A stretch of 64,000 bases of DNA from Blautia sp. Marseille-P3201T (GTDB lineage Bacteria > Bacillota > Clostridia > Lachnospirales > Lachnospiraceae): positions 248,001 through 312,000 of the forward strand of contig NZ_LT635468.1 in NCBI RefSeq assembly GCF_900120295.1, in the 5' to 3' direction. This document shows, in pieces, positions 2,838 to 20,310 of this stretch (position 1 is its first letter; every line of letters begins with the position of its first letter). The translations under genes were made by a program, and so were the position numbers. Below the pieces are notes generated by a model that was not told the origin of the DNA, ran no database searches, and was given only the letters and a program-made list of their open reading frames with translations.

Positions 2838-2856
2838 TTTATATAGGTGGTTTTTT
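2838..2856. promoter_or_regulatory. candidate AraC-type operator half-site upstream of GH29
   Basis: TATAGGTGGTTTT at 2842-2854, in the gap between the kinase stop and the GH29 start, matches TATAGGTAGTTTT at 10571-10583 upstream of the GH95 gene in 12 of 13 positions. Both lie 50-90 bp from a fucosidase start codon. A target for the adjacent YesN/AraC-type regulator is inferred. Confidence 0.3.
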
Positions 2857-2867
2857 ATATCCATTGG

Positions 2868-4730
2868 TTATTTTTGTTTTTCTTTCAAATTTCCGCTCTC
2901 GTCCACATCCTCTTTGGTAATCACAGGAATTTTTACAACGACCAGTGTTCCCATACCCTTTTTGCTGTATATAGACACAGCATCCTCTATGCCAAAGTAA
3001 AGACGAATACGCATTTGTGCGCTGTGAAGTCCAATTCCCGTACTTCTGGGCGCTTTTTCTTCTGTGTTTTTTCTGCCTTTTTTAATCTGGCTTCGCACCT
3101 GTGCCAAACGTTCCTTATCCATTCCGCAGCCGTTATCTACCACTCTTATCCAAACCCATCCGTCTCTTTCGTGAATAGAAAGACGAACCTTCATAGGTCT
3201 TTCCAGACCTTCCGTTCCGTATAAGAAAGAATTTTCCACAATGGGCTGAAGAAGAATTTTCAGGGAATACAGCTCGTGAACCTGTGCCATATCTGTCTGC
3301 AATTCAAATTCCACACTGTCTCCATAACGGTTTTTCTGGATTTTCACATACGCCATGAGATGTTCTATTTCATGCTCCATAGGCACGATAACCTGTCCTC
3401 CGCTTATGGAAAGGCGATACATTCTGCCAAGACTTGCCGCCATTCTGCCAATATCCGGACGACGGGCTTCGTTGGATTTCCACACAATATTTTCCAATGT
3501 GTTATACAGGAAATGAGGATTTATCTGACTCATCAATACCTCAAGTTCCAGCTCTTTCTTTTTCCTGTCTGCCTTTAATCCCTCAATGATGTGGGTATTA
3601 ATCCGCTTCAGCATGGAGTTATAATAGACCATCATGTCATAGATTTCATTTTTTCTGGGGTGCTCCTTTAACTCTACATAAGCATTTAAGTTGCCGTTAT
3701 AAACCTCTTTCATGGAAATATTCAGCTTGTTAATCGGCTCCATAAAACTTCTGTAAAGGTAAACAATCAGCAAGGCGCTGATACCCATAGAAACCAGAAG
3801 GATAATAAAAAATTTCAGATACAAACTATCCACGGAAGCCGTTATCTGTGTTTCGGGAACGGCCATAATCGTACGCCAGTCGTTGATTTCTGATTTTTTG
3901 ATATCTACCAGATAACTCTTTCCCTTTTTACCGATTTCAAAGAATTTTTTCGTATTGTCCCGCACCTTTACAAATAAATTTTCGGGAATTTTTCCTTCTT
4001 TTAAAGTTTCTTCGTCACTGCTGGAAATAATATTTCCCTCTCCGTCTACAATGTAGATTTCCCCTCTTAATACCTTTGCCTTATCTTTATATAAATCATA
4101 AAAAACACCTTCATCAAGAGCAAAAATCTGCACATATTCATAACGGTTATGTTCACGGGAAAACACACGTCTGGAAACAAAAACTGCCATTTTTTCATGA
4201 ATATCCTCAGGCATATCGCTGAGCAAAAAGTTCTCCCTTACGGGATACCAGATAAACCGCATCAAATTTGCCGGATCATTTACCTGCATTTTTTCCAGCT
4301 CATGCTTTGTTTCCTCTGTATCCTGATTGGGATCTCTGAAATTTAAAAGCTCCCCTCTCCAAGTATACATGGCGCTGAGCTTTTCACGGCGGTTCAGCCT
4401 GTCCAATGGCTCTAATATCTGCTCATGAATACGGACAATCGCTCCTTTTTTATAAGAACTGCTCCTTTTGCTGTAAATGGTTTCCGCATAATCCTCGAAC
4501 TCATCTGTCCCTGCATACACATCGGACATGGCATACACTTCATCTACCTTCTCATCAACATTTCAGCTCACTTCTCTTAAATCATGATGGGCAGTACGAA
4601 TATACTCCTCTTTTAAAGCAGACCTTGTCTGCCAGAATAAAAGAGTCACCACGCCCAGCACCGGAATTAAAATCAACAGCATGCCAAAGAGCATTTTCCG
4701 CTTTAACGCTCCTGTTTTTTTCTTTTTCAT
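2868..4730 (-). pseudogene. YesM-like sensor histidine kinase, interrupted by in-frame TGA
   Basis: The complete frame starts at ATG 4730, overlapping the regulator stop by 4 nt (ATGA). It runs for 620 codons but carries a TGA at 4563-4565 (codon 56), shortly after the first membrane span (about residues 12-32). After the stop come an extracellular sensor region, a second span near 3840-3770, a HAMP-like linker, the His_kinase region with QINPHFLYNTLENIVWKS (phospho-acceptor His) and an ATPase domain with VVDNGCGMD and TGIGLHS. Without the first span and signal the remaining 556-aa frame cannot be inserted normally, so the kinase is probably non-functional. This family pairs with AraC-type regulators to control carbohydrate genes. 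Confidence 0.85.
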
Positions 4731-6243
4731 TCCCTTCCTGACCTCGCACCTTCTACAAAGTTTCTGTATTCATTGGGGCTCATGCCACAGCTCTTTTTAA
4801 ACACTTTAATGTAATTTGATACGTCTGCCCAGCCAAGAGCTTCCGCAATCTCATAGATTTTCAGGGATGGGTCAGACAAAAGCTCCTTGCTCTTCTCCAC
4901 TCGCTTTTGTGTTACATATTCACTAAAGTTACATTCAAATTCACTTTTAAAGATTTTGGAAATATAGGCAGTATTTTTATGCACCTTTCCCGCAATATAT
5001 TCCAGAGAAATTTTATTGGAGGTAAATTCCAAATCTACGATTTCCCGAATAGCAGATGCCAGACTGCTGCGCTTCTTATTCTCTCCCCTCATCTCTTTGC
5101 AGGCTTTGGAAGACTCTGACAGCACCAGATACAGAAAATCTCTTTTTTCCTTCAACGTATCCTTTTTATAAATATCCGAATATCTGCATCCCTGCTCTTT
5201 CATAACCTTTTCCATCTGCACACTGCATCGCAGAAGCTTTCTGGAAATGTGAAACAGCAATTCCAGACACAGACGGTTAATATAGCCATAATCGGAAATC
5301 ACCCTGTCATAAAAAACAGAAAAGGTGCTGTCCAAGGCTTCCATCAGTTTTTCCTTTTCCTGCTTTAAGATATATTCCATAATCTTTGCATCGTCAAAGG
5401 AAATAGTGTAATAATCAAAATCCGCTTCTCGAATTTCATCGTAATACATAATCAAATCTTTTTTCTCTTTAAAGATTTTCTGGCTGACACAGCACTTTGC
5501 CTGCTCATAGCACTGGGGCAGCATCTGATAATCCACACAAAAGCTGCTAATACCCACGGACACGCAAATCCCCGTACTTTCTTTTACATATTGCAGTAAT
5601 TTCTCTGTTTTTTCCCGTAAGGTTTCCTCTTTTTCATCAGGCGGAAGCATTAAAATTCCTGTCAGCCTTTCCTCGTAGTTCAAAAAAAATTTTCCTGAAA
5701 TGTCATCTAAATGTTGATATTCCCGCAAAGCCTTTAACACCTGTACCATCAGGTGATAATTGACATTCCTGTCCTTTTTCTGACTGTCTTCCAGATAAAA
5801 GAACATAACGCTGAAACGACATTCTCCTTCAAAAAGCTACTCCATTTCATCTTCGTTGTAGCCGTATCCTTTGATTAAGGCATTACATCTTTTCTGCTCT
5901 CTTAACTGTCTGGCTTCTTCGTCAGAAAGTCGGCGCTCTACATCCTCATCCAGCTTCTTTTTCATTTTGCGGAATACTTCCTCAAATTCATCAATATCCG
6001 TAGGTTTTAATAAGTATTCACTTACTCCGTTCTGAATTGCAGTCTGAAGATATTCAAAATCATTGTAACCGCTTAAAATTACAATTCTGATATGGGGATA
6101 TTCTTTATTCAGCCGCTTCATTAGCTCAAGCCCGTCCATCTTCGGCATACGGATATCGGAAAGCACCACTCTTCCCACGGCAGGCTGTTTGCAATACCCT
6201 GTGCGATTGCCTGCTCATCTTCTACTATCATTAGTCTGTACAT
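4727..6243 (-). pseudogene. YesN-like AraC-type response regulator, two lesions
   Basis: The gene starts at ATG 6243 with MYRLMIVEDEQAIAQGIANS, the receiver acidic pocket, and reads to LPWEEW at about 6166. The reading frame then changes: VVLSDIRMPKMDG, which holds the phospho-acceptor Asp, follows at once in another frame. About 25 residues of the receiver are therefore missing, an out-of-frame deletion of about 75 nt. A second lesion is an in-frame TAG at 5837-5839, after NEDEME; the same frame continues through MFFYLEDSQKK to a C-terminal AraC helix-turn-helix pair (IAGKVHKNTAYISKIFKSEF, EIAEALGWADVSNYIKVFKK). It sits 18 bp downstream of the lyase stop and overlaps the kinase start by 4 nt. 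Confidence 0.85.
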
Positions 6244-6261
6244 ATTTTCACCCTCTGTATA

Positions 6262-8265
6262 TTATGCGAAACTAATGGTATCTCCTTTATCTGCACAGAT
6301 TAACAGGCTTCCTATTCCCAGACACTCCTCCACCTGAAGTAAATCCTGCGGCCCTGTCAAATCACGGTATCGGAATATCAACTGATATTCGTGATTATCT
6401 GTGCGGATATACAAGCCCTGCGCCTGTTTCTCATCCAGCATACAATCCCGTACAGGATTATAAACCTGCTGCATACACACCTCTGCCTTCTGCTTCTGTC
6501 TGCCTGCCAGCACCGCAAGCATGGCTGTTGTTCCTTCTCCCTTTCTATCTGCCCAGATACTTTCGTTTTTCTCACACAGATTGTAATGGCGGGAAAGCTT
6601 GCTCTCAACCTTTTTAACGGATGTGTCTTTCTGAGGAAATACCAGTTCCATTTTTGCTTTCTCTCCATTATATACAATTCTGTTGTCTTCGTAAACAAGC
6701 TGTCCCTGATTATTGAAGTGGAAAATTCTGCTATATGTATGTGTTTCTCCTGTATACGCCATATCTGCAATCACATAAACCCCCGGTTCTAATACGACTA
6801 TTTTTCTATTCAGAAGCACCTGCGCTCCCCCTTGCAGATATCCTGTATGTGCACCCTCCAATACCAGATATCCGTTCTTTTCCTTTGGTGCAAATCGAAG
6901 CTCAGGCACAGCGTTTTGGCTGCCCCATGCGTCTGTATATTCCATAAAGTCCTGTCCGTCTACTAAAATCGTGTTGTGTGCATAAGCGCTTTTCAGCCAA
7001 ATCCTGTTTTCTTCGTGATAAGTATACTGATATCTTCCTGCATCCACCAGTACGTCCTCGCCTTCGCTGACCACATCAAGATGCAGCTTGTCATTATGTC
7101 CGTGTCCTCCGCCCAGGCAGCCGTTTCGGAAGTGAAGATATTCTCCGTCACGCTCCCAACTACTTCGCACATAATAATTTCCACTTTCCTCCAGCATAAA
7201 ATTCTTCTGCTTCGGCGTCTGTCCATTGATGTTGTCGTAAATATCTGCTCCTTTTTGACGTAAATCCCAGATACTCTCATAGTCCGGATATTCTCCTGCA
7301 CAGCCCTTTAAAGCCTCTGCCTCCTGACAGCCTTCCTTTGCCAGAATAATAGCAGAAGCAGCCAGCATATCCTCCAGACAAGTTTCGTCACTGTCTCCGG
7401 TAAGAGGCTGACAGTCATCCGGTTTTTTCCATGCCACATTTGCCATTGCCATACGGCGGGTAACTTCTAAAAGCTTTTCGGGAATTTCCCTTTCCCATAC
7501 CTGTAAAATATGAACGCTCTCTAAAAAGCAGTGCAGAACTTCATTGTGATACATACAGGACTGCTCCCAATGTACGCCGTCTGAAAATACCTGAATTTGC
7601 CCTTCCTGCTCCAGACGCTTTAAAGCCGTTTCCACATATTCCTCCTGATTAAGCGCCAGACCGATAAACAGCAAACCGTGGTTTTCAATAACACCCCAGT
7701 TGCTGGAAATCTGAAAGCCCCTTCTGGCATGAAGAAGATATTCTCCATGTTCCTCTAAGCTTTTTGTAAACATTTCCATAAAAGCGTCATCAATCAGCGG
7801 ACTGTTTTCAAAATATAAGATGCTCTTTGTCCAGTTTTCCCCACGAATACCTGCCTCAATTTCTCTCCATGTAACCTTTTTACTCTCCTCTGTCAGAGGT
7901 ACGCCTGTAATCCAGTCTGTTATCATATCTACAAAGGCTTTGGCATACTTTTCCTCTCCTGTCATGGCATAAGCCTGTCCCAGACAGATAAAATAACGAT
8001 GACGGTTCATCTGATAAATAAACTCCGGATCATCTGTGGGCATATACGTCCAGTTAATGGGATATGTAAACGTCTCCTTTTCGTAGGTACGCTCCATGTC
8101 CCAGGGTAAGTCAAAAATAAACTCTAAGCGCACAGCCTCATCTGCAATACGCATAATCTGGTCGGTGTTTTCCGAGCGATATTCTCTCGCCGCCTTTGCA
8201 CACCATTCCAACTCGCCCTTTTGATATCTGTTTTTCTGTCTTTCAAAATATTCTTTTTTATTCAT
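6262..8265 (-). CDS. heparinase II/III family polysaccharide lyase
   Basis: A 667-aa protein of the heparinase II/III-like lyase group. The N-terminal alpha/alpha toroid (about residues 60-330) includes the conserved SSNWGVIENHGLLFIGLAL segment, where the catalytic Asn is expected. The C-terminal beta-sandwich has the hallmark GGGHGHNDKLHLDVVSEGEDV and LVDAGRYQY. Family members cleave uronic-acid-containing glycans (heparin, heparan sulfate, alginate or similar) by beta-elimination; the exact substrate cannot be told. There is no obvious signal peptide, so it may act on imported oligosaccharides in the cytoplasm. The start overlaps the GH95 stop by 8 nt and has AAGGAG upstream, indicating translational coupling. 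Confidence 0.85.
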   Translation of the reverse strand: MNKKEYFERQKNRYQKGELEWCAKAAREYRSENTDQIMRIADEAVRLEFIFDLPWDMERTYEKETFTYPINWTYMPTDDPEFIYQMNRHRYFICLGQAYAMTGEEKYAKAFVDMITDWITGVPLTEESKKVTWREIEAGIRGENWTKSILYFENSPLIDDAFMEMFTKSLEEHGEYLLHARRGFQISSNWGVIENHGLLFIGLALNQEEYVETALKRLEQEGQIQVFSDGVHWEQSCMYHNEVLHCFLESVHILQVWEREIPEKLLEVTRRMAMANVAWKKPDDCQPLTGDSDETCLEDMLAASAIILAKEGCQEAEALKGCAGEYPDYESIWDLRQKGADIYDNINGQTPKQKNFMLEESGNYYVRSSWERDGEYLHFRNGCLGGGHGHNDKLHLDVVSEGEDVLVDAGRYQYTYHEENRIWLKSAYAHNTILVDGQDFMEYTDAWGSQNAVPELRFAPKEKNGYLVLEGAHTGYLQGGAQVLLNRKIVVLEPGVYVIADMAYTGETHTYSRIFHFNNQGQLVYEDNRIVYNGEKAKMELVFPQKDTSVKKVESKLSRHYNLCEKNESIWADRKGEGTTAMLAVLAGRQKQKAEVCMQQVYNPVRDCMLDEKQAQGLYIRTDNHEYQLIFRYRDLTGPQDLLQVEECLGIGSLLICADKGDTISFA

Positions 8266-10492
8266 AATTTTCCACTCCTTCTAGCTCTAATCTGCTGTTT
8301 TCTAAAAGAGTAACGCTCCTTCGTATCCCACAATAACGCAGCTCTATGGTTTGAGTTTTCCCCGAAGAAAGAGAAATTTTTGTAAGTTTTCCACATTTCC
8401 ATGCAAAATCCACCTTCAGCCTTCCTTCCAGACACAGACCTGTCACCATCCCTGTCTCCATTCCCTCAGGAATAATCCGAAGAAGCTCTACCACATCACC
8501 CCTTCGGGATGCCAATGCTTCCAATACTGCCTCTGCCATTCCGAAATTTCCGTCAATCTGAAACGGGGGATGAATATCCCACAGGTTTTCATCCACACTG
8601 TTTGCAAGAAATTGTCTCATCTGCTCATCAAATTTTTTCTTGTCCTTTAAGCGGGCATAAAAGCACATAATCCACGCTTTACTCCAGCCCGTATGACCGC
8701 CTCCATGCTCCAAACGATATTCCAGAGTTCTTTTTGCCGCCTCGAAAAGCGCAGGCGTATCCTCTGAAATTTCTCTTCCCGGGTGCAGCCCATATAAATG
8801 AGAAATATGACGGTGCCCCTTTTCTACTTCCTCGTATTCCTCCTGCCACTCCAAAATCCTGCCGGACTTCCCAATCTTGGTAGGCGGCAAATGTTCTAAT
8901 ATCTCCTGCGCCATTTTTTCTGTCTCATATTCCGGCAAACCTGTGCTATATTTTCGGCATCCTTCCAGATAATTCTCCGCAAGCTCACGAATAATCTGAT
9001 GGTCCATGGCAACTCCCATAGCCACACTGGCTTCCTGACCATCCAAAAGGCGATAAGTATTCTCCGGTGATACCGTAGGCCCGCTTATCCACATTTTATC
9101 AGATTTCCGATAAAGATAGTCATAGAAAAATAAAATACATTCTTTCATAACAGGCAGCACACGCTCTCTGATTTCCTTCTTATTTTCCTCAAACTCACTG
9201 TGATGATAAAGCTGATTTGCCATCCATGCGCCGCCCATAGGCCAGAGAAACGCCGGAAGCCACAGCCCTGTAATATCTGTATCTCCCCACAAATTTGTAT
9301 TGTGATGCGCTACAAATCCTCTGCAAGCATACACTTTTTTGGCTGTTTTTCGCCCATTTGGAAGCATTTTCTCTATCAAGTTGAAGAACGGCTCATAGCA
9401 TACGCCCAATCCTGCTTTGTCCGCCATCCAGTAATTCATCTGGAGGTTAATATTGATGGTATATCCGCTTTCCCACGGAGGAGTAAAGCTTCCATTCCAT
9501 ATTCCCTGAAGATTTGCAGGCAGCGCACAGCCATAGGAACTGCTGATAAGAAGATATCTGGCGTAGGAAAACATAAGCCAAGTTAAATAGCCCTGAACCT
9601 TTGGTTCTTCACAGCGTTTTAAAAGCTCATCCGCCGGAGTTTTTTCCAGCTCCTCTTCCCCTTCTATCTCCAGCTTCATGCTGTTGTAGAGCTTTCCATA
9701 CTCCTCAATGTGCGCCTTCTTAATTTCCTCAAATCCCGCTTTTGCTGCTTCTTGTAAAAGCCTGCCGCACGCACCTAAAGATTTTTCACCTTCATAATCT
9801 GTACGCACGCAAAAGAAAATTTCCACATAAGAGGCGTTTTCTACAAGAAGATATCCACCTTCTATACAGACTCTTCCATCTGTTTTCCCCACTCTGCACC
9901 TTATATCATAGCACACTCCGTCACCGCTGTGTCCATTTAAAGAAATTTCTCTGTCCTCTGCTTCGGCATTTTCTTCAAACGGTCTGCGGTTTAATCCCAA
10001 GGAAAAGCTCATGCCCTGTTCTTTGTCTGTTTCCATCCGCAGAGCAGTGGCCTGATACTTAACAGAAGAAAAAATCTCTCTTACTGTCTTGCAGTTGTCA
10101 AAGCAGATTTTCACCCCTGCTTCTCCTTTTTCTAAGTCAATTCCTCTAAAATACTCCTTTACTTTTCCAAAAGGCTCGAAAGTAAGAACTGCCTCTGCTG
10201 CCGGATGATAAGGATTGGTATATCTGGGATTTCCCACAAACCATCTGCTGCATAAAGTCTGTGCCTTGCTTGCCTCTCCTTTTTCTAAAAGCTCTCTCAC
10301 CTTTTCCAGTTTTTCCTTGCCTGCCTCTACGGCTCGCTCTCTTTTTCCTCCGTACCACAGACTTTCTTCATTTAAAACAATCTGTTCCTGCTGCACTCCG
10401 CCCAAAAGCACTGCTCCCTGTCTTCCATTTCCCACAGGAAGTCCCTGTTCCCAGCTTTTCGCCTCATGTGTTAAATAAAAACCTTTTCCCAT
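8258..10492 (-). CDS. GH95 alpha-L-fucosidase
   Basis: A 744-aa glycoside hydrolase of family 95, expected to remove alpha-1,2-linked fucose from mucin or milk-type glycans (some members act on L-galactose). The N-terminal beta domain begins LTHEAKSWEQGLPVGNGRQG. The alpha/alpha barrel carries the expected catalytic positions: Asn pair in TININLQMNYW (near residue 347), Glu in VSPENTYR (near 476) and Asp in FQIDGNFG (near 645), by analogy with bifidobacterial AfcA. No signal peptide is visible, so it is probably intracellular. It is the first gene of the fucosidase/lyase/two-component operon and appears intact, unlike the regulators downstream. Confidence 0.92.
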   Translation of the reverse strand: MGKGFYLTHEAKSWEQGLPVGNGRQGAVLLGGVQQEQIVLNEESLWYGGKRERAVEAGKEKLEKVRELLEKGEASKAQTLCSRWFVGNPRYTNPYHPAAEAVLTFEPFGKVKEYFRGIDLEKGEAGVKICFDNCKTVREIFSSVKYQATALRMETDKEQGMSFSLGLNRRPFEENAEAEDREISLNGHSGDGVCYDIRCRVGKTDGRVCIEGGYLLVENASYVEIFFCVRTDYEGEKSLGACGRLLQEAAKAGFEEIKKAHIEEYGKLYNSMKLEIEGEEELEKTPADELLKRCEEPKVQGYLTWLMFSYARYLLISSSYGCALPANLQGIWNGSFTPPWESGYTININLQMNYWMADKAGLGVCYEPFFNLIEKMLPNGRKTAKKVYACRGFVAHHNTNLWGDTDITGLWLPAFLWPMGGAWMANQLYHHSEFEENKKEIRERVLPVMKECILFFYDYLYRKSDKMWISGPTVSPENTYRLLDGQEASVAMGVAMDHQIIRELAENYLEGCRKYSTGLPEYETEKMAQEILEHLPPTKIGKSGRILEWQEEYEEVEKGHRHISHLYGLHPGREISEDTPALFEAAKRTLEYRLEHGGGHTGWSKAWIMCFYARLKDKKKFDEQMRQFLANSVDENLWDIHPPFQIDGNFGMAEAVLEALASRRGDVVELLRIIPEGMETGMVTGLCLEGRLKVDFAWKCGKLTKISLSSGKTQTIELRYCGIRRSVTLLENSRLELEGVENYE

Positions 10493-10566
10493 TTCTGTCT
10501 CCTATTTTCTATAAAAGCTTATACTATCCCTTATTTTATAACTATTGTAACCCTGACCTGTTTTTC

Positions 10567-10585
10567 GTGATATAGGTAGTTTTCG
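10567..10585. promoter_or_regulatory. candidate AraC-type operator upstream of GH95
   Basis: TATAGGTAGTTTT at 10571-10583 lies about 80 bp before the GH95 start and matches the site at 2842-2854 upstream of the GH29 remnant with one mismatch. Regulation by the neighbouring, now broken, regulator is inferred. Confidence 0.3.
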
Positions 10586-10614
10586 ACATTCATGGGCGAT
10601 ACTTGCCTGTGAAA

Positions 10615-10680
10615 TAAAAACTGCCGTAGAAATATATCTCAGATACAATGACCTGACTGCATTTTCTACGACAGTTTCTT
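10615..10680 (-). terminator. intrinsic terminator after the 1799-aa surface protein
   Basis: The arms AAACTGCCGTAGAAA (10618-10632) and TTTCTACGACAGTTT (10663-10677) are complementary except for one position. Read leftwards the stem is followed by TTTTTATTT. It separates the surface protein gene from the GH95 operon. Confidence 0.75.
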
Positions 10681-10686
10681 ATCTCT

Positions 10687-13600
10687 TTATTTTATATGTT
10701 TCTTTCTTCTGTACAAAGCTGTTATTGTTCCTAAGGATACAACACCGATGCACATCCAGAGCATGAGCTGTGCCTCATCTCCTGTTTTTATGCCACTGTT
10801 TGTACTACTGTTTGTGCCATTGTTCTGATTTCCGCTCTGATTATTCCCCTGTGAATTTGAAGGTGTATCTACCACTACTCCAAATCCTCCAAGACTTTTT
10901 ACAGAAACAGATACCATATCGTCTGCACTCTTACCATTCAGCTTTTCTACTTTTCCGTTTATGTAATGCAGTACAGTAAGCTGCTGTCCGTTATATTTTT
11001 CTCCTACCGGAATAGACAGCACTGCTTCCTTAGGAAGCTCTAAGTTCTTTCCATTCTGTCGGATAACAACATCATATAAACGGAATACAGATTTTGCGGA
11101 AGGAATTTCCTTTCTCATTGCTTTCACTGCTTCACTGTCTTTATCAAGAGGTGTTACCAAAAGCTCCATATCCTGCTCAAGACCTTTTCCTTTTAAAGAA
11201 ACTCCATACTTTTTATTTACCAATGTAATTTCTTTCTGCTCATCCGGATTTGGATTTGGCTCAGGATTTGGTTCCGGTTGTGGCTCAGGCTGTGAAGTCT
11301 TTTTCTGCTCTATGGTAAGAAGATACGTTTTGATGTCTTCTCCTCTTACTGTTTTTTTAGAAACAATTTCAATTTTTGTTCCGTCTTCCACAGGAATAGC
11401 CTGTCCGCTTTCATAAACCTTATCTGCTGACTTTATTACTGTTTCCGCATAGCGATTATAAGATTTCGGATTTAATGTAATTTCTTTTACCTTTTCTCCC
11501 ACTGAAAGCGTATATTCATAAGTATCTCTTGCATATTCCGGTGACAATTTACCGTCTGTAATTCCCAGTGTAGATAATTCGGCATTTTCTGTTACGTCTT
11601 TTCCCAGATTTTCCGTATATTCTACTGTAATTACGTCCTTATCTTTTAACTTGCCGTTTTCTACTGTAAAATCCGCAAAACCGGTTTTTGTAAATTCGTC
11701 ATTTAAAGTACCTACCCAGCCGCTGCCCGGTCCACGGTCAAATTCGCCAAGTCCGTCAATTTCTTCAATATATTCTCCGTTTCGAATAGAAATACTAAAG
11801 CCATTTTCCTTGCAGGCACGTTCAATTACGCTCATCATAGAGTCCGTCTGATAAATCGTTGCCTGTGTCTGAAGCATCATACCCTTTATTTCGTTTTCTT
11901 CCAGAAGGGACAACAGTTTTTCTTCCTTCTTTAAGCCGTCCATAATCGTTAAAGTAACTTTACCTACTTCTTCACCCAGCGTTTTTAATTCCTCAATGCG
12001 TTCAATAGCTTTCTGTAACTTCTCTGCATTATGTACAAGCTGCTGTTCATCTTCTGTAAGGCTTTCATACAACGCCTGAATGGAAAGCACAACTTCTGCA
12101 TCTTCCAATGTTAAATCTTTTATCGCCGGAAGGTTTTCAATAAGCTGAATAACTTCTTCTACTTCTGTTTTTTGATTTTCTTCTGTTAAATCCCAGTAAG
12201 TCTTTTCTCCTGCTTTTGCCTGTGTATAAGCTGTAAATGCCTGAAATACCTGAACACCGGACATTTCATTTAACTTTTTATTACTTTTATCGTGGCAGAA
12301 ACCATTTCCTTTTTCTGTTTCACAATAATAGTTGTCCATAAGACAGGTAATCATATTACTATAAGGAGTTCCAAAATCGGAATTTAAAGGGTCGATGCCT
12401 AAAATCGTCAAAGTAAGCAATACCTGCGCTGTACTTTCAGACGTTCCAAAGTCATAAGAGTCAGACATAGAATTCTTCAAATATTCTAATCCTGCTTCCA
12501 CTGCCTGATGAACTTTTACATTTGTATTTCTGTACGGAGCCAGCGCCTGCAAGCACATAGCTGTCATATCCACACTGACAGTCTGATTATCCACAAGTCC
12601 GAAACCGCCGTTTTCTTCATTCTGGAATTTCAAAAGTGCAGTTATGATACTCTCTCTGTTCCATTTTGCATCTGTGGGAATTTCCATTCCTTTTGCATCC
12701 GTTACCAGCAGCGCCCATGCCAGCTCATTTGCACCCATATCTAAGCTCGGATGATTATAAATCATTTCTACCAGATTTACACCGTCTACATCCGTAATGT
12801 CTTTGTTCATAATTAACAAGGACAATGCCACACGCTCCATATCTGTGGGTTTTTGCTTTTTACTCCATTTTTTCACTGTGTCTGCCACAGACTGATAATA
12901 AGCATCTAATTTTTCCTGTGAAATGGTTTCTCCTGCACGAAGACGTGCATACACAATCCAGTCGTTGTTGTTATACTGATAATTTTCTTCTGGATATTTG
13001 GATGCAAATTGCTCTTTTGCCCCCTGCAATCCTTTGTTTATCAACGCATCAATATCTACCTGCGGTGTTTCCCCGCCTGACACAGTAACGGTGAATTTTA
13101 TAGGCTCTACTTTATTTGTCTTGTCTATCGGAGTTCCTGTTACCGTTACAGTACCTTCTTTTAAAGACTGCACATAATACTTATCACTGGTAAGAAAAGA
13201 ACCTTTATCCGGTGCATTATCCCATTCCGGATTTCCTTTTTTCCAATATCCCTGCTCTTTACGGACAACCTTTACAATTCCCGCTTTATCATAAGACCAT
13301 TCCAACTGTGGATCTGTAACACTCCAGCCATCCTTGGAAAGCTCTCCCTCAAAAGTCAAGTCAAGAAGCTGTTCTGTGAAGTTTTCCATCTGGAGGTTGC
13401 TTTCATCTATCGTTATCTTTGTCAACGGATTTTTATACTTATAAGTAACCTCTGAAGTTCCGCTTACTACGCTTGTTTTCTTTGTCTCAGGATTTGTCTG
13501 TTCGATTTTTGCCGTATAAGTGACTGTACCCGCTTTATATGGCACATATCCCTTCACCATACTGTCTACATAGTCGGCAACAGACGGATTGCTGCTGGTT

Positions 13601-16086
13601 ACTGTCCAGTTACTTGCATAGCTGGCATTTTCCGGTGATACAATCACACCGCTGTAATCCGGCAAAAACGCATAATTGTCAGGATCATTGGCATTTCTGG
13701 AATGAATTTCTTTTTCTCCCGAAATGGCCGGCTTCACACTTTCAACAGGTACATAAGAAGAAGTTGCTTCTACCTCTGCTTTTATTTCAGGGTTTGCCTT
13801 TGCGGTCACTGTCATAGACGCTGTTCCCGGTTTGTTGAACTTAAATTCGCTGGATGAATTCAAGTTATAAATCAGCTTTTCATCACTTGGCGCATAAGTA
13901 AAACGAGAACTATGTACCGGTACAAATTCTTCACTTCCCTGATATTTTACCTGTACCTGAATGTTTTTCCATTCAGAGCCTGCCACTTTGATTTTACCGT
14001 TGGTCACATCCTGTCCGTCAATAAAGAGTTTGATTTCTTCCATCACCTGCGCTTTGGCAATTACTTTTATCCAAGCAACCGTTTCTGTGGAGGAGTCTTC
14101 TTTTATCTCTGTGGCAGATACAATAGCAGAACCTTCTCCGTCTACACGAAGACCTCCTTCATCTGCTCCGATTAATAAACAGCCTTCCGGCTTTACTTCT
14201 GTCATGTTCCAAGAGATTTTACTGGTAGACGGTACATCTTTTAATTGGAACGTTCCGGCTAAATTAAAAGCTCCTACTTCATCCGGTGATACATATAAGG
14301 TTTGATCTTCAATAGTTTCTTTCACACCGTCTGCAAAAGTAAATTCTACTTCGTATTTATTTTCCGGCAAATTTGGTTTGTCAGGATTATATTCCTGATT
14401 TTCTCCAAAATACGGATATCCGGCGCTGCTCTGTCCCCATGTAACGCCAAATTCGCCCTTATTGTCGTTTAGAAGCTGCACAAACTCTTTTGTCTTCATA
14501 TCTTCTTCTGTTTTTGCAGAAGAATTCACTAACGCATCTGCGGAAAAATCCACAGGATTTTTCATACTTTCACACCAATAAGAATTTATCAGTGTTCCTG
14601 CTTTGTATTCCTTAAATAAAGTACCTTTTTTTCCTTCGCTGACAGAATAGCTGTTAATCAGGTTTCCGCCGGAAAGTCTCTTTGCAAATCCACAGGCAGC
14701 ATCGCCCTTTACATCCGTATAGCAGTTGATAATCGCACCTTTTAAATCATAACCTGCCGGTCCGCTTTCTGCCCATGAAGCTAAAGTTCCTGTGAAATGA
14801 ATATTCTGAAGAACACCTTCTTCTCCTACATTCTGAAACAGCCATGTAGCATCATCAAGGGTAATGGTATGTCCGTTTCCATCCAGAATTCCGTTAAATT
14901 CAACGAAAGACATATACATTCCGTCTAACGTAATATCATTGTCCAGTACATAATAAGTACCTGTCTGTGCCGTATCTATTTTTTCCAAATCAGACTGGTT
15001 TTTGATATGCACAATCTGACTTTCATCTGTCGGAGGTGCAACCGGTTCTGTAACCTTTTTCTTCTCCAACTGTTCTTTTGCCTGATTTAAAGCTTTTAAC
15101 GCCTCGTCAATTTCTGTCTGTTTTACATCCGTTTTTTCTAAAATCTGCTCTGCTGTATTTAATGCTTCTGCAAATCCTCTCCAGCTTTCTTCTGTATATT
15201 TGTCCTGCTCCAGCTTCTTACCTTCATTTACAGCATTTTGAAGCGCTGTTTTATCCGGCTGTTCCGGATTTGGTATCTCTCCCTGCTGTGTCAAAACAGG
15301 AAGTCCGCTATTACTGCCGTCTGCCGGAGAAATCCATGTAAATCCTGTGTCGGGAATATCCTTATTTAATAATGCTGCTCCAGCCTTTAATTCCTCTAAG
15401 GTTTTTACACAATCACTTGCATTTTCCGGAATTTTTCCCATAGATACAGGACCGTAAACCCCCGGAATTTTATCCTTCGCATAATAACTGTTAGATAAAA
15501 TACTGTCATCTGTCTGGCGAATTCCAATAAGACCGCCTGCCATCATGGCCTCAATACTTCCTCCAAAGTAAGAATTCTTAATTGCACCTGACTGAAATAT
15601 TCCTACAAGACCGCCTGCATCATCTAATCCACTTAATTTTAATTTCGCTGTGGAATAACAATTTTGAATAGTTCCGCTTAAAGTAACTGCCATACTTCCA
15701 AAAGTTTTGTCACTTGCAATCACATTTTCGCTGGTTACTCCAAGGTTCTGAATAGTCCCTGTTACCTCGTTTGCCAATGGCTTATCTGCAAGAGTAATCG
15801 TGTGTCCGTTTCCATCTAAAGTTCCTGCAATACTCTCAAAATTTTGTTCCTGTTCAAACACAATGTCCTCTGTCAGAGTATACGTCGTTCCTGCTTCAAT
15901 AACTGTGGGAATTTCTGTTTCAGAAATTTCAGCTTCCTGCCCCGTCCCACTTAAAATTTCTCCTGCTTCTACAACCGGGGTTTCCATATCGCCTGTGGCA
16001 TGTACCGATACAGGCATTCCGGTAATAAGCAATGCCATTACCAGAAGCAGACTGAGAACACGGTTTGCATTTCTTCTTTTTTTCAT
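10687..16086 (-). CDS. large surface protein, probable corrinoid-binding (intrinsic-factor-like), B12-riboswitch controlled
   Basis: A 1799-aa secreted, membrane-anchored protein. Approximate order: signal peptide (1-30); two blocks of GLUG-like beta-helix repeats with LDGNGHTITL (62-272, 359-575), split by a FIVAR-type helical module (280-345); Ig-like regions (680-1000); an alpha/alpha-toroid-like region (1009-1299) with NEENGGFGLVDNQTVSVDMT; a DUF4430 domain (1375-1492) with RGPGSGWVGTLND and KDKDVITVEYTE; a cadherin-like beta-sandwich (1499-1595) with SPEYARDTYEYTLSV; a module shared with the PL8 lyase (1619-1739); KTGDE, a membrane span and a basic tail. In human intrinsic factor and transcobalamin an alpha6/alpha6 barrel plus a DUF4430-like beta domain clamp cobalamin. 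A cobalamin riboswitch lies upstream, so surface B12 capture is the best inference. It is not proven. Confidence 0.75.
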   Translation of the reverse strand: MKKRRNANRVLSLLLVMALLITGMPVSVHATGDMETPVVEAGEILSGTGQEAEISETEIPTVIEAGTTYTLTEDIVFEQEQNFESIAGTLDGNGHTITLADKPLANEVTGTIQNLGVTSENVIASDKTFGSMAVTLSGTIQNCYSTAKLKLSGLDDAGGLVGIFQSGAIKNSYFGGSIEAMMAGGLIGIRQTDDSILSNSYYAKDKIPGVYGPVSMGKIPENASDCVKTLEELKAGAALLNKDIPDTGFTWISPADGSNSGLPVLTQQGEIPNPEQPDKTALQNAVNEGKKLEQDKYTEESWRGFAEALNTAEQILEKTDVKQTEIDEALKALNQAKEQLEKKKVTEPVAPPTDESQIVHIKNQSDLEKIDTAQTGTYYVLDNDITLDGMYMSFVEFNGILDGNGHTITLDDATWLFQNVGEEGVLQNIHFTGTLASWAESGPAGYDLKGAIINCYTDVKGDAACGFAKRLSGGNLINSYSVSEGKKGTLFKEYKAGTLINSYWCESMKNPVDFSADALVNSSAKTEEDMKTKEFVQLLNDNKGEFGVTWGQSSAGYPYFGENQEYNPDKPNLPENKYEVEFTFADGVKETIEDQTLYVSPDEVGAFNLAGTFQLKDVPSTSKISWNMTEVKPEGCLLIGADEGGLRVDGEGSAIVSATEIKEDSSTETVAWIKVIAKAQVMEEIKLFIDGQDVTNGKIKVAGSEWKNIQVQVKYQGSEEFVPVHSSRFTYAPSDEKLIYNLNSSSEFKFNKPGTASMTVTAKANPEIKAEVEATSSYVPVESVKPAISGEKEIHSRNANDPDNYAFLPDYSGVIVSPENASYASNWTVTSSNPSVADYVDSMVKGYVPYKAGTVTYTAKIEQTNPETKKTSVVSGTSEVTYKYKNPLTKITIDESNLQMENFTEQLLDLTFEGELSKDGWSVTDPQLEWSYDKAGIVKVVRKEQGYWKKGNPEWDNAPDKGSFLTSDKYYVQSLKEGTVTVTGTPIDKTNKVEPIKFTVTVSGGETPQVDIDALINKGLQGAKEQFASKYPEENYQYNNNDWIVYARLRAGETISQEKLDAYYQSVADTVKKWSKKQKPTDMERVALSLLIMNKDITDVDGVNLVEMIYNHPSLDMGANELAWALLVTDAKGMEIPTDAKWNRESIITALLKFQNEENGGFGLVDNQTVSVDMTAMCLQALAPYRNTNVKVHQAVEAGLEYLKNSMSDSYDFGTSESTAQVLLTLTILGIDPLNSDFGTPYSNMITCLMDNYYCETEKGNGFCHDKSNKKLNEMSGVQVFQAFTAYTQAKAGEKTYWDLTEENQKTEVEEVIQLIENLPAIKDLTLEDAEVVLSIQALYESLTEDEQQLVHNAEKLQKAIERIEELKTLGEEVGKVTLTIMDGLKKEEKLLSLLEENEIKGMMLQTQATIYQTDSMMSVIERACKENGFSISIRNGEYIEEIDGLGEFDRGPGSGWVGTLNDEFTKTGFADFTVENGKLKDKDVITVEYTENLGKDVTENAELSTLGITDGKLSPEYARDTYEYTLSVGEKVKEITLNPKSYNRYAETVIKSADKVYESGQAIPVEDGTKIEIVSKKTVRGEDIKTYLLTIEQKKTSQPEPQPEPNPEPNPNPDEQKEITLVNKKYGVSLKGKGLEQDMELLVTPLDKDSEAVKAMRKEIPSAKSVFRLYDVVIRQNGKNLELPKEAVLSIPVGEKYNGQQLTVLHYINGKVEKLNGKSADDMVSVSVKSLGGFGVVVDTPSNSQGNNQSGNQNNGTNSSTNSGIKTGDEAQLMLWMCIGVVSLGTITALYRRKKHIK

Positions 16087-16156
16087 TTTCTTTCTCCTTT
16101 ACATTTTTCCTTACAGAGCATTTTTTATGAGACAGCCACATAAAAGAGAACTTCAG

Positions 16157-16248
16157 AATATTTATACATTTTTAGTGAATTTGTTGAGCACGCTTTGAGA
16201 TTACAAGCTCAAAGTGAGCGCAAACTGAACGTAAAATGTATAAATATT
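16157..16248 (+). repeat. 92-bp palindromic interspersed element, copy A
   Basis: It is bounded by a perfect 16-bp inverted repeat (AATATTTATACATTTT at 16157-16172, its complement at 16233-16248). Inside is a second hairpin, CGCTTTGAG with CTCAAAGTG around a short loop. The inner part aligns with copy B at 29878-29972 in reverse orientation at roughly 80% identity. It lies in the untranslated leader between the B12 riboswitch terminator and the start of the 1799-aa protein. It carries no coding capacity, so a MITE-like or RNA-structural element is inferred. Confidence 0.7.
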
Positions 16249-16282
16249 TTTGGCATTCCCTTAATGTAACAAGCTCACAAAA

Positions 16283-16316
16283 AAAGGTTCCTTTACACAC
16301 CGGTAAAGAAACCTTA
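16283..16316 (-). terminator. riboswitch expression-platform terminator
   Basis: Read leftwards, AAGGTTTCTTTAC pairs with GTAAAGGAACCTT and is followed by at least seven T residues. It lies about 80 nt downstream of the cobalamin aptamer and about 200 nt before the start codon. This fits premature termination when cobalamin is bound. Confidence 0.8.
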
Positions 16317-16394
16317 TCTATCTTCACTATGAAATTTTATCCTGCACATCTTTTTCTACACAAATAAAACTCCCTCAACCCGGAAATCTATTTC

Positions 16395-16503
16395 TCTGAT
16401 GGCAGATTTTCTGACTTAGCCGAAAAGCATTACAGTAGAGGTGACTGTATCGGATTTGCACCGATTTCCCTTTTAACCTTGGAGCAAGCTCCAACGACCA
16501 TCA
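16395..16503 (-). promoter_or_regulatory. cobalamin (adenosylcobalamin-class) riboswitch
   Basis: Read leftwards the region contains the core elements of the cobalamin riboswitch. These are TTAAAAGGGAA, the GGTGCAAATCC segment inside an ATCGGTG/CCGAT helix, CAGTCACCTCTACTGTAAT (the B12-box region) and AAGTCAGAAAATCTGCC at the 3' side. The closing helix P1 is TGATGG (about 16497-16502) with CCATCA (about 16395-16400). A TTGGAGC/GCTCCAA hairpin occupies the P2 position. Several otherwise common extension helices are short. The aptamer is followed by an intrinsic terminator and then the 1799-aa surface protein gene. Confidence 0.9.
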
Positions 16504-16527
16504 TGGATATGCAGTTTACACTCCTTT

Positions 16528-16556
16528 ATAGTACACAATTCAAAAAAGAATATCAA
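16528..16556 (-). promoter_or_regulatory. sigma-A promoter driving the riboswitch leader
   Basis: Read leftwards, -35 TTGATA (16556-16551), a 17-bp spacer and -10 TACTAT (16533-16528). The -35 overlaps the stop codon of the PL8 lyase gene, so the surface protein has a promoter of its own just upstream of the aptamer. Confidence 0.65.
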
Positions 16557-19500
16557 GCCTTTTTCTTCCTTTTTAATACAACAAACAGCGTTCCTCCGAC
16601 TACAAACATCACAGACAGCATTACAAGCGGTGTTTCATCTCCTGTTTTAACCTTATCCACACCGGAAGAAACTGCCTTATCCAATATCGTACCAAAGCTG
16701 TTTAAAGACTCTACTTCTACGGATACAAATCCGTCTTTTACCTTTCCTTTTAATTTTTTTACTTTTTCATTGTCACAGGAAAGTACCACAACTTCTTTGC
16801 CGTTATATTTTTCCGATACAGGAAGCTGAAGCTCTGCCTTATGAGGAAGGGCAATTTCTTTTCCGTCTTTTAAAAGCTGAATTTCAATAGGATTGTCAAG
16901 CTGCTGTTTCTTGGAAATTTCCTTTTCCATAAGCTTCACATCTGCATGTTTTTTATCCAGCTTCTCTACAGATAACTGCATATCTGATGTCAGACCTTCT
17001 CCTGTTAATTTGACACCATGCTCTTTATTTACCAGCATATCAATTTCCTGAATTTCCGGTGTACTTGGTTCTTCCGGATTTTCCGGCTTCTGAGGTGTCT
17101 CCGGTTCTTCCGGCTGCGGTGTTACAGGCGGCACAAGCTGAAGCTCTGCCATGGAAGCTGCTCCGTTTGTTCCTGCCATAGCAAAAGTCAAAACTGCTCC
17201 GTTTTCTGTTTTTTCACAAGTAACATTTTCATCCAACTGAACACAGTCTGCTATTTCTTCTTCAAGTGTAAGCTGAATATTTCCTTTATTTTTCATTGTG
17301 GGGTCGGAAACAGAAACTTTCACTGTTCCCTGCTCCGTTTCCTGAAGCATAACAGACGCAGCCTTATCACTTGTTATTCCGTCTATACTTCCTCCCTGCT
17401 CTTGCCAGAAATTTATGCCTGTGATTTTTAATGTCTCATGGCGCACTGCCTGAACCTCACTGCTGTTTTCCAGTATGGTTACCTTAGGTGCTTGTGCGTA
17501 ATTTTCTGTTTCTTCTGCACTTGTTTCGGGAAGCAATACATAACTGTAAGATGCGTTTTCCGGGTTCTGTCCGTGGTCTACCCACATTTCCAGATAATTC
17601 TCTGTGCTTTCCCCCTCAAAAGTTCCTACATCCTTCCAACTGCCTGTGGTTTGACCTCTGCGAACCTGAATTTCTGTATTTTCTTCAGGGAAATAATATC
17701 CTGTTCCCACAGACTGATTGCCTTCTAAATGTGCCCAATTTACCTGCTCAAAGCTTGTGCCTGATACGTCTGCTGTACGTTCAACCAACTCTTTTACATT
17801 CGCTTCTTTCACAGGTATTTCTGTTTTTTCTCCGTTGACAAGAAGCTGATTGCTTCCGTCTTTTCTTAACTTCTTATTCTCAATGGTAGTTTCCACCGGA
17901 AGTTCCATATTTTTATTGGTAATTCCTGCTCCAAGGCAGACCATTTCGTCATCAAACATAAACCATGACTTCTTGCCTTTTAAATCCGGCGCATAAGAAA
18001 CCGGTGCATCTCCTGCAATTCCCTGCGTTTCTCCTGAAAATGACATACCGCTGACGCCATAATTTCCTATGGAAGTTCCTCCTACCCAGCTCTCCTTGGA
18101 ACAGAAATCTCCGCCCTGTGCAAAACCTGAGCCATCCGGTTTCCCTGTACCGATATTTACCGGAACCACGGTCGTTCCTGGCAGTCTTAACGGATTTACT
18201 GTATTCCAATAATTCTCTGTATACTGGTTGTCCTCATCATAAATATAGGTCATCCCGTTATTCTGATGCCATCCAAAACGATTTTCATCATTCATAATTT
18301 CTGTGTTCTGAATACGTTCCGAATACATAGACAATGCAAAAAGATAGTCTTCTGTTCTGTGAACTACACGGTCCATAAGGGGATAAGATTTATGTACCGG
18401 CGCTATGTTACTTTGGATGGAGGTATCTTCCAAAATTTCCTTGGCTTTCTTTTTAATTGCCATATTTTCCGCACCAACAAGACTGTCAATAAATCCTTCA
18501 TCTTCTTCCAGCCAAGCTTTCAGCGCAGAAAGCGTTGTCTCTTTTGCCTCTTGGCTAAAGGAGTCTACAATTTGCAGAATAATCATCATTGCCTCACGTC
18601 CTGCTGCCTGATTGCTGCTTGCTGGTCTGGATACAGAACGCCCTTTCAGACAATCCAGCATCATTCCCTTATACATGCCGTTTCCAAAGCCTTCCACAAT
18701 ATAGCTTTCCAGATTGTCCTGAACCTGTTCCGGATATTTCCAGGGTGTTCCAGCAAGGAGAGACGGAATTTTAGCGCCACCCTTCATAAACTCAATCCCA
18801 TAAGCGCCTAAATACGGCACTTTTATATGGTCGAGATAAGAACCGTCCGGATAAAAACCGCTGTTATATCCGTTCGCTGCAATTTGAGCGCTGTCTTCTA
18901 CATTTTGAATAACAAAGGTCTGGGAAGACGCCAGCATCCCCAAATACACCAGCTCATTATCTTCTCTCAATGCTCCCAGTCCCACTGCCGTTGTGGAACA
19001 GTCGATAATATTCGCTCCCTGCGCCTCACGATATCCCTGCCCATGGGTGCTTGCCGTATTGATAACGCCTTCATGGAACGGATCAGGCTGGAAAAAGTAA
19101 AGTGTTTCTGTGTACGCCATAACCTGTTCTTCTGTCAGTCCGTCATAAATCAATATTAAAGCAGGAATTAAATCCTTGGGAATACCAATTTCCCATGTCC
19201 ACCAGTTATCCGTCTGGCTTTTTGCCGTATAACAAGAGCCGCACAGGAAATCTAAAATATTGGTAATATCCTTTAGCATATCCTGATTTTGATAGAGAGC
19301 TCCGCCTTCTGCTGCGTAAGCTTTACACATAGAAAGCACCTTTTTAAAAGAAACACGAAATTCCACTGCATCATCTTCATAAGGAATATTCTTATTGCCT
19401 TTTGCTCCCTCATCCTCTGCCCAAGGAATACCGCCACATTCTTCCTGTCCCTTATAAACATAAGCGTTCCAAAGCGCTTCTGCCTCCTGATTGATTTCTT

Positions 19501-20113
19501 CTAAGACTTCCGCTCCGCCTTCTTCTGATACTAAATCTTTGCCAATTAAAGACTCTTTCCATGCCTGACGAATTTTTCCGTAATCTTCTGCCGTTGCAGA
19601 GGGCAGTTTTGAAGGAGACTGATATAAAATTTCTACCTTCCACTGTGCTGTTTTTCCTTGGTCATCCTGTGCCACCACTACGGCATTGCCCTTATTCTCT
19701 CCTGTAATCACTGCGTTTCCGTTTTCATCCGCTTCAACCTTCAATAAATGTTCCGCACTTGCATCTCCTGCCTTACGTGTTCCGTCTGTTTCGCCCTCCT
19801 TTAATTCTCTTTTAATTTTAGAATATCCTGCATTTCGTAAGAAAGTCCCATCCTTCTTTAAAAATTTTGCACTCCATGTAACATTCTCGGAGAAGCCCTC
19901 CGGTTTGTCCAGTTGCAAGCTTTCACCTCTGACAATAGAAATTTCCTGATTTTCTGTTGGCACGGCTGTTTCCAAAACCTCACGCTCCTGTTCTTCATTC
20001 ACTGCAACAACATTTACAGGCTCTGCCAAGACTCCCGTCACATTTCCCATACTCATAGCTGCAATTAACATTGCACTTATGTACTTTTGATTTTTTCTTT
20101 TACCTGTCTTCAT
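16553..20113 (-). CDS. PL8 polysaccharide lyase (hyaluronate/chondroitin lyase type), cell-surface
   Basis: A secreted lyase of about 1186 aa. A signal peptide is followed by an Ig-like region, then the alpha/alpha toroid with the aromatic patch DNWWTWEIGIPKDLIPAL (about 303), an Asn in GANIIDCS (about 369), His and Tyr in YLDHIKVPYLGAYG (about 426) and the Arg motif GRSVSR (about 490). The beta-sandwich domains follow. These match the catalytic set of streptococcal hyaluronate lyase. The C-terminal module (LVNKEHGVKL... GEKYNG-like) matches the one in the 1799-aa neighbour, followed by VKTGDE, a membrane span and KRKKKA. I chose ATG 20113 (AAGGAGG upstream) over 20164, whose Shine-Dalgarno is only 1 nt away. 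Substrate choice between hyaluronan and chondroitin is open. Confidence 0.88.
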   Translation of the reverse strand: MKTGKRKNQKYISAMLIAAMSMGNVTGVLAEPVNVVAVNEEQEREVLETAVPTENQEISIVRGESLQLDKPEGFSENVTWSAKFLKKDGTFLRNAGYSKIKRELKEGETDGTRKAGDASAEHLLKVEADENGNAVITGENKGNAVVVAQDDQGKTAQWKVEILYQSPSKLPSATAEDYGKIRQAWKESLIGKDLVSEEGGAEVLEEINQEAEALWNAYVYKGQEECGGIPWAEDEGAKGNKNIPYEDDAVEFRVSFKKVLSMCKAYAAEGGALYQNQDMLKDITNILDFLCGSCYTAKSQTDNWWTWEIGIPKDLIPALILIYDGLTEEQVMAYTETLYFFQPDPFHEGVINTASTHGQGYREAQGANIIDCSTTAVGLGALREDNELVYLGMLASSQTFVIQNVEDSAQIAANGYNSGFYPDGSYLDHIKVPYLGAYGIEFMKGGAKIPSLLAGTPWKYPEQVQDNLESYIVEGFGNGMYKGMMLDCLKGRSVSRPASSNQAAGREAMMIILQIVDSFSQEAKETTLSALKAWLEEDEGFIDSLVGAENMAIKKKAKEILEDTSIQSNIAPVHKSYPLMDRVVHRTEDYLFALSMYSERIQNTEIMNDENRFGWHQNNGMTYIYDEDNQYTENYWNTVNPLRLPGTTVVPVNIGTGKPDGSGFAQGGDFCSKESWVGGTSIGNYGVSGMSFSGETQGIAGDAPVSYAPDLKGKKSWFMFDDEMVCLGAGITNKNMELPVETTIENKKLRKDGSNQLLVNGEKTEIPVKEANVKELVERTADVSGTSFEQVNWAHLEGNQSVGTGYYFPEENTEIQVRRGQTTGSWKDVGTFEGESTENYLEMWVDHGQNPENASYSYVLLPETSAEETENYAQAPKVTILENSSEVQAVRHETLKITGINFWQEQGGSIDGITSDKAASVMLQETEQGTVKVSVSDPTMKNKGNIQLTLEEEIADCVQLDENVTCEKTENGAVLTFAMAGTNGAASMAELQLVPPVTPQPEEPETPQKPENPEEPSTPEIQEIDMLVNKEHGVKLTGEGLTSDMQLSVEKLDKKHADVKLMEKEISKKQQLDNPIEIQLLKDGKEIALPHKAELQLPVSEKYNGKEVVVLSCDNEKVKKLKGKVKDGFVSVEVESLNSFGTILDKAVSSGVDKVKTGDETPLVMLSVMFVVGGTLFVVLKRKKKA

Positions 20114-20310
20114 ACCTCCTCCTTCTTTCAAAAGTTCTCCATTCTTATTCCTATAAGTTACCATTCCTCCTTTGCTTTATAAATACAATATTTGAATTTT
20201 TCTGTTACTATTTATAGATTATGTATTTTTTAGTATTATTTTTTCAATATTCTGTTATTTTCTTTTACTTTTTCATTCAATATAAATACAATATAATATT
20301 CATTTGTCAT

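Follow-up and report, generated by a model that had tools for sequence, protein, structure and literature searches.

A cobalamin riboswitch-led, predicted surface protein of Blautia with domains resembling those of animal vitamin B12 carriers

Introduction

The general idea of bacterial B12-binding proteins that combine a toroid with an SLBB domain was already published in 2007, when Burroughs et al. (PMC1796856) predicted this function for secreted, sometimes anchored bacterial proteins. In the sections of that paper available to us, either of the two domains may come first, FIVAR and Ig-like domains may be added, and predicted operons include CbiO/CbiQ-like genes; key enzymes of B12 synthesis are usually missing from the bearers, and animals are proposed to have acquired their B12 carriers from such bacteria. 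Here, we describe P0001, a 1799-residue protein that, as judged from its sequence and from structure models, is probably a B12 catcher of this kind. Its gene lies behind a cobalamin riboswitch on the minus strand of a 64,000-nucleotide stretch of DNA (hereafter, the window) from Blautia sp. Marseille-P3201T, a relative of gut bacteria (contig NZ_LT635468.1, positions 248,001 to 312,000). P0001 is like the transcobalamin-like SLBB clade, as far as the available sections describe it, in its secretion and anchor signals, its toroid plus DUF4430-type beta-grasp domain and its FIVAR domain, but unlike that clade it is led by a riboswitch, stands apart from an importer and is encoded in a genome with most of the cobamide pathway. 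The term "riboswitch" does not occur in the text of PMC1796856, and the pairing of a cobalamin riboswitch with DUF4430 was unreported in the titles and abstracts of the literature searched (with bioRxiv and most subscription papers outside the search). As far as that literature goes, the riboswitch link is new, and so is a free-standing, riboswitch-led satellite in a predicted cobamide producer.

The animal carriers transcobalamin, haptocorrin and intrinsic factor have the same two folds as P0001 in the same order, toroid and then beta domain. However, identity to them is 12 to 16%, and P0001 differs in its length of 1799 residues, its anchor signal, a helical spacer and another predicted placement of the domains. 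Uptake of the energy-coupling factor (ECF) type, as in the cobalamin importer ECF-CbrT (PMC5997447), is the likely downstream step for P0001 too, but the ECF-CbrT cluster nrdJ-cbrS-cbrT-pduO comes without a surface clamp in the available part of that source, and the B12 role of the Blautia S component is only presumed. BtuG and BtuH of the Bacteroidetes (PMC8941943) are B12-binding accessory proteins of gut bacteria, a role like that predicted for P0001; compared by description only, the accessible part of that source does not describe a toroid-DUF4430 pair.

A riboswitch and a terminator precede the gene for P0001

A note made from the letters of the window without database searches (the sequence-only reading) had placed a cobalamin riboswitch with its own promoter and a terminator ahead of the gene. 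The aptamer was indeed detected at 16384 to 16517 on the minus strand, with a score of 66.4 bits for the Rfam model RF00174 (gathering score, 31.5; E = 3.3e-14); it was the sole Rfam match at the gathering threshold in the 64-kb window. It is compact, with 134 nt against the 189 positions of the model, and its peripheral part is short. An intrinsic terminator with a 13-bp stem, a 6-nt loop and a T run, graded strong, lies at 16284 to 16315 (minus strand) and provides the RF00174 element with an expression platform (16315-16284). The stretch 3' of the aptamer gave a better fold than any of 200 shuffles (z = -3.55). The interval named in advance for the riboswitch, 16283-16503, takes in the aptamer and the terminator except for some 15 bases. 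The promoter did not hold up: the gene strand has a single sigma-70-like site matching 9 of 12 positions (16556-16528), and the region as a whole, counted on both strands, has two, compared with 1.5 expected in shuffles, which is not above chance. When truncated leaders were folded in search of an antiterminator, none was clear, and just a weak competing hairpin 3' of the aptamer was seen. On the minus strand, 35 bases separate the end of a PL8 lyase gene from the riboswitch.

P0001 combines a toroid-like domain with a DUF4430 domain

The open reading frame of P0001 occupies 10687 to 16086 on the minus strand, with its start at 16086. Read by eye, its product begins like a signal peptide and ends at residues ~1761-1799 (10690 to 10806, minus strand) like a sorting signal, with KTGD, a hydrophobic stretch and RRKK, which agrees with the secreted, anchored 1799-residue protein that had been proposed; the Pfam scan of P0001 matched no anchor family. 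The neighbouring PL8 protein has a tail of the same kind.

The proposed order of a toroid-like region followed by DUF4430 was borne out by an all-helical modelled domain and a match to PF14478 (DUF4430), and the motifs cited with it, GPGSGWVGTLND and KDKDVITVEYTE, are present in P0001. The PF14478 match covers residues 1415-1491 with 33.2 bits against a curated cut-off of 23.8, which makes the protein a member of the family; with the model and Foldseek, it outlines a beta-grasp domain like the C-terminal domain of transcobalamin at residues ~1372-1491 (11614 to 11973, minus strand). The alpha/alpha toroid, at residues ~1035-1305 (12172 to 12984, minus strand), was delimited from the structure model, PF00432 matches in relatives and Foldseek. 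No Pfam family was called for it in whole P0001 at E 0.001; the segment of residues 1004-1500 alone matched Prenyltrans (PF00432) at E 0.064, as did 35 of the 41 members of an alignment of relatives, A2, at E up to 0.1. PF01122 (Cobalamin_bind) was absent from P0001 at E 0.001 and from the segment at E 0.1. Between the two domains, the model places a helical spacer (residues ~1303-1370; 11977 to 12180, minus strand; helices 300-367 of the segment). Residues W40, N117, G157, D170, T172, A173, Q177, L179, Q218 and Q276 (segment numbering) are invariant in A2; in the toroid-first set, A173 is kept in 15/26 and Q177 in 14/26. Since DUF4430 precedes the toroid in several Bacilli rows of A2, the beta domains are misaligned in those rows; a further alignment, A4, consists of the toroid-first rows. 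Residues 569-1318 of P0001 are 30% identical to a toroid protein encoded on contig C10 of the same genome.

Structure models lead to the animal B12 carriers

The segment 1004-1500 was modelled from 41 sequences with a mean pLDDT of 91.2 and a pTM of 0.69. The model has an all-helical domain at the toroid, with pLDDT blocks mostly of 92-99, then the spacer of about 65 residues, then a beta-grasp domain, in which a helix (414-424, segment numbering) is followed by the hairpin strands 429-432 and 436-440. A hairpin after the helix is given as a mark of the transcobalamin-like clade in the available sections of PMC1796856. In a Foldseek comparison with 350,542 PDB chains, ranks 1 to 15 of 825 matches were all transcobalamin, haptocorrin or intrinsic factor, with E values from 4.1e-10 to 1.5e-7, and rank 16 followed at 2.4e-4. 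The top 15 alignments span 512-537 columns and can therefore be filled only by both domains jointly. A short-linker relative from Hominisplanchenecus faecis, modelled from 26 sequences (pLDDT 92.0, pTM 0.86), gave the same 15 chains at the head of 874 matches (E 1.1e-10 to 1.9e-9).

Profile searches gave weaker matches. A toroid-first profile (26 segments) reached haptocorrin 4kki at positions 200-422 with E 0.0054 (rank 23 of 57), a DUF4430-only profile reached haptocorrin at E 0.71, and the second half of the segment reached transcobalamin-2 at E 0.18; the link to the animal carriers thus rests more on structure than on sequence. A search by sequence for a solved relative of residues 1003-1799 gave nothing convincing (best E 0.12).

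Riboswitch, toroid, DUF4430 and ECF genes recur together

A check for the same riboswitch-DUF4430 pairing in other Lachnospiraceae had been proposed, and the pairing was found in many relatives. From 200 genomes drawn from the family, the 43 with a match to the segment (the Blautia genome included) were counted. A same-strand RF00174 riboswitch lay no more than 10 kb upstream of 46 of their 88 DUF4430 matches, where uniform placement predicts 0.30; downstream, with both strands allowed, 4 of the 88 had one no more than 10 kb away. The Gram-positive anchor PF00746, taken as a control, had an upstream riboswitch in 1 of 73 cases, and that one was a toroid/DUF4430 protein (Fisher p = 2e-14). The pairing is not chance. 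Of the 88 DUF4430 matches counted, 2 scored under the Pfam cut-off, and of the 77 riboswitches, 1 fell short of the gathering score; the 77 are made up of 76 from the 43-genome scan and 1 from a separate scan of the Blautia genome.

Beyond the family, 84,980 species genomes were scanned with two short toroid motifs, which gave 116 confirmed stretches; the best 80 of these 116 form 79 loci, ranked by tblastn with a query that contains DUF4430 and may favour loci that bear it. DUF4430 is also encoded in 74 of the 79. In overlapping categories, toroid and DUF4430 are fused toroid-first in 25/79 and DUF4430-first in 18/79, and a separate adjacent DUF4430 gene is present in 57/79. A same-strand riboswitch was found upstream in 19 of the 34 loci scanned for RNA, a non-random set of best-scoring or named isolates; L053 and L058, with an upstream riboswitch on the opposite strand, were left out of the 19. 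Among the 15 of these 34 loci that we take to belong to class Bacilli, 14 have such a riboswitch, each at, or no more than about 210 bases from, the opening of the first toroid/DUF4430 frame. Several Bacilli loci (L071, L075, L076, L077, L079, L099 and L101) encode single proteins with the domains in a mirror-like arrangement, toroid-DUF4430-DUF4430-toroid; behind them lie another DUF4430 gene, on its own, and genes of ECF type.

Relatives of the EcfT-like and EcfA proteins of Blautia are encoded in 45/79 loci, and an S component as well in 43/79, in a search that used the proteins of the Blautia genome, where EcfA matches alone could be other ABC ATPases and many contigs end inside the locus. 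ECF relatives were present in just 3 (L050, L051 and L060) of the 15 loci that head the list and hold the nearest relatives of P0001 (L048-L062); proteins like P0001 are thus mostly found apart from the importer.

Other B12-linked loci of the Blautia genome

The Blautia genome (2.94 Mb) has five DUF4430 matches and seven cobalamin riboswitches, and all five DUF4430 genes lie on the same strand as a cobalamin riboswitch and 0.4 to 10.9 kb downstream of it, four of them within 10 kb. On contig C6, two tandem cobalamin riboswitches (C6:29032-29523; L014 1132-1623) precede a gene for a 273-residue DUF4430 protein, which is followed by genes for a 1545-residue toroid protein, a 1354-residue DUF4430 plus toroid protein and a 400-residue DUF4430 protein, a putative lipoprotein by a lipobox read by eye. 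Thereafter come a 324-residue EcfT-like membrane protein, a fused ECF ATPase (TIGR04520 above cut-off), an ECF S component and a sortase. The 324-residue protein was taken as EcfT by its position and look, with no match in Pfam or NCBIfam. The toroids of the two large C6 proteins were identified as matches to segment 1004-1500. Some 2.7 kb upstream of the tandem pair, C6 has a third riboswitch, which precedes HNH-repeat and leucine-rich-repeat genes; two other frames lie in between. According to the sequence-only reading, no BtuFCD genes lie near P0001, which would feed an importer encoded elsewhere; "elsewhere" is likely right and is probably the operon on C6, a contig other than that of the window, and the importer is corrected to one of ECF type. 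Two FecCD permeases are also encoded elsewhere in the genome. At the locus on contig C10, toroid and DUF4430 are split over a pair of choline-binding proteins, and a riboswitch lies about 1.7 kb ahead of the first. A megablast search for a plasmid match gave none.

Matches in the Blautia genome to CbiD, L, F, G and H, a CbiJ-E-T fusion, CbiA, CobT, CobU, CbiB, CobD and a CbiP-CbiC fusion (those to CbiG, CobU, CobD and CbiC below the NCBIfam cut-offs), with further matches to uroporphyrinogen-III methyltransferase, HemC and HemL, cover most of the cobamide pathway, and the strain is therefore a predicted cobamide maker. CbiK, CbiQ, CbiM and glutamyl-tRNA reductase are encoded beside another cobalamin riboswitch. 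Three matches to the B12-binding domain, two of them above cut-off, suggest corrinoid-dependent proteins. Most of the anaerobic pathway is located at C10:471700-500500 (L127, L128); the same genome has three riboswitch-led toroid/DUF4430 loci.

Proposed function and its alternatives

We consider it quite likely that P0001 belongs, as a satellite, to a cobalamin-uptake system widespread in Gram-positive bacteria. At low intracellular corrinoid, the riboswitch would permit readthrough of the terminator and P0001 would be made, a direction of regulation that we infer because aptamer and terminator are both present; when corrinoid is plentiful, the aptamer would be occupied and the terminator would halt transcription. 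After export, a sortase would attach the protein to the cell wall. There, at the surface, its toroid and DUF4430 domains would bind corrinoid, most likely closing over it like the domains of transcobalamin and intrinsic factor, and the corrinoid would be passed to the membrane, probably via a DUF4430 lipoprotein, and on to the C6 ECF importer, which is encoded together with paralogous surface proteins. Capture by a cobamide maker would serve recapture, the uptake of preferred foreign cobamides or periods free of cobalt.

Several observations weigh against this explanation. The 15 leading chains align to the segment model with an rmsd of 27.3-28.8 Å and a query TM-score of 0.29-0.41, and to the model of the relative with 22.2-22.9 Å and 0.36-0.44; such a high rmsd with a low TM-score means that the domains match singly and that their relative placement differs. 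Of the intrinsic-factor/transcobalamin-like pair that had been proposed, the resemblance to the animal carriers therefore stands, all 15 best structural matches being such proteins, and the placement of the domains (rmsd 22-29 Å) does not. Both models argue for membership in the B12-carrier family and neither displays a closed clamp; as far as the models go, a shared pocket between toroid and DUF4430 is plausible. According to the available text of PMC11107200, the domains of transcobalamin come together in dependence on cobalamin and also bind it singly; apo models are therefore a weak test that neither proves nor refutes a clamp. Five of the closest relatives (L049, L052, L053, L058 and L062) lack the spacer of about 65 residues between the domains, and repeats similar to it are present in other relatives, for example, L021. 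In profile searches of the PDB, the toroid is by sequence alone nearer to squalene-hopene/terpene cyclases, and Cobalamin_bind was matched by just 2 of the 41 members of A2. In the genome counts, 42 of the 88 DUF4430 matches have no riboswitch within 10 kb upstream, no riboswitch was found in 10 of the 43 genomes with filters under which weak matches are lost, and 157 of the 200 family genomes gave no match to the segment, including the sole other genome of the same genus among those listed. Moreover, a strain that encodes most of the cobamide pathway may not depend on scavenging.

It is possible, if somewhat doubtful, that toroid and DUF4430 of P0001 form no mutual clamp and that each binds corrinoid alone or pairs with a domain of another surface protein, such as the C6 DUF4430 lipoprotein, in a relay across the wall, which is compatible with the rest of the uptake scheme. 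The domain placement in the two models is unlike a clamp, relatives have the pair toroid-first, DUF4430-first or as adjacent genes, it is split at the C10 locus, and isolated transcobalamin domains are reported to bind cobalamin (PMC11107200, available text), but both domains lie in one reading frame in 51/79 loci, and the clamp of the animal carriers is intramolecular. We attach about the same limited weight to the idea that P0001 binds not complete cobalamin but another corrinoid (cobinamide, pseudo-B12 or the strain's own leaked cobamide), which would make it a means of recapture by a producer and not of B12 scavenging. It agrees with a clamp and with the presence of most of the anaerobic cobamide pathway in the same genome, but nothing in the sequence fixes the choice of ligand.

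Readings of the toroid as an enzyme fared much worse. PL8, GH95 and heparinase-type genes flank P0001, glucuronyl hydrolases appear at Foldseek ranks 19, 21 and 22 (E ~6e-4), and the C-terminal stalk plus tail is 39% identical to that of the PL8 protein, all of which would fit a glycan-active toroid of the unsaturated glucuronyl hydrolase kind that serves the PL8 locus, with the riboswitch incidental. Yet the 15 B12-carrier chains outrank these hydrolases by at least three orders of magnitude in E, relatives in other genera accompany riboswitches and ECF genes, and the common stalk adjoins the anchor and may be generic, so that a role in glycan breakdown is very improbable. Hardly credible is an enzyme of the terpene-cyclase/prenyltransferase type: squalene/terpene cyclases are the best PDB matches by sequence, but DxDD, the catalytic motif of squalene-hopene cyclase, is absent from the toroid of P0001 and present in 3/112 toroids of relatives, and the protein that carries the toroid also carries DUF4430 and signals for secretion and anchoring. 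The enzyme reading and the glycan reading were both dropped in view of the Foldseek ranks, the DxDD check, the gene context and the stalk comparison.

The uptake scheme can be extended to a wider picture, for and against which we see an equal case. Gram-positive bacteria would run riboswitch-controlled, modular "bacterial transcobalamins," with toroid and DUF4430 fused in either order or split, that feed a dedicated ECF importer; the system would correspond, in Firmicutes, to capture by BtuB/BtuG, animal intrinsic factor and transcobalamin might derive from it, and P0001 would be its free-standing, separately switched satellite for taking back corrinoid while host-type glycans are degraded. 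BtuH and BtuG are of another architecture and sit on Gram-negative cells. Separate genomic observations link regulator, binder and importer, so that the prediction of 2007, with B12 as the ligand of bacterial toroid-SLBB proteins and such bacteria as the source of the animal carriers, can now be tested directly on a segment of 500 residues. If true, a Firmicute capture system would stand beside BtuB/BtuG, and competition for gut B12 might arise at this step.

Leader repeat, neighbouring genes and further features

Between the terminator and the start codon, the leader contains a palindromic repeat of about 92 bp (16157 to 16248, minus strand), the arms of which were read from the sequence. The leader fold around it gave a z of -4.90. 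The repeat has 52 matches in the Blautia genome, at 38 places by hand count (40 of 60 candidates scored), and its copies at so many places mean that part of the long leader is a repeat, which in the leader of P0001 is probably a passenger. Long copies are mostly 80-95% identical and resemble miniature inverted-repeat transposable elements.

P0001 further contains a FIVAR domain at residues 278-340 (15067 to 15255, minus strand) and a Cadherin-like domain at residues 1506-1593 (11308 to 11571, minus strand), both from Pfam, and N-terminal repeats of a beta-helix/GLUG-like kind were seen by eye. The PL8 polysaccharide lyase gene (16553-20164, minus strand; Pfam) belongs to a glycan locus at 2010-20164 of the window, with a GH95 gene, a heparinase II/III-type gene, a partial alpha-L-fucosidase match, an AraC regulator and a histidine kinase, a gene content that suggests the breakdown of glycosaminoglycan- or mucin-type glycans. 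Residues 1074-1202 of the PL8 protein matched IsdC of NCBIfam weakly (E 0.00095; 19 bits, cut-off 155.85), probably through the anchor region. Elsewhere in the genome, a cobalamin riboswitch of 103 bits (L129 6400-8829; C9:452399-454828) lies upstream of genes for an exporter-type ABC ATPase and an ABC-2 permease, an unusual target for a B12 riboswitch.

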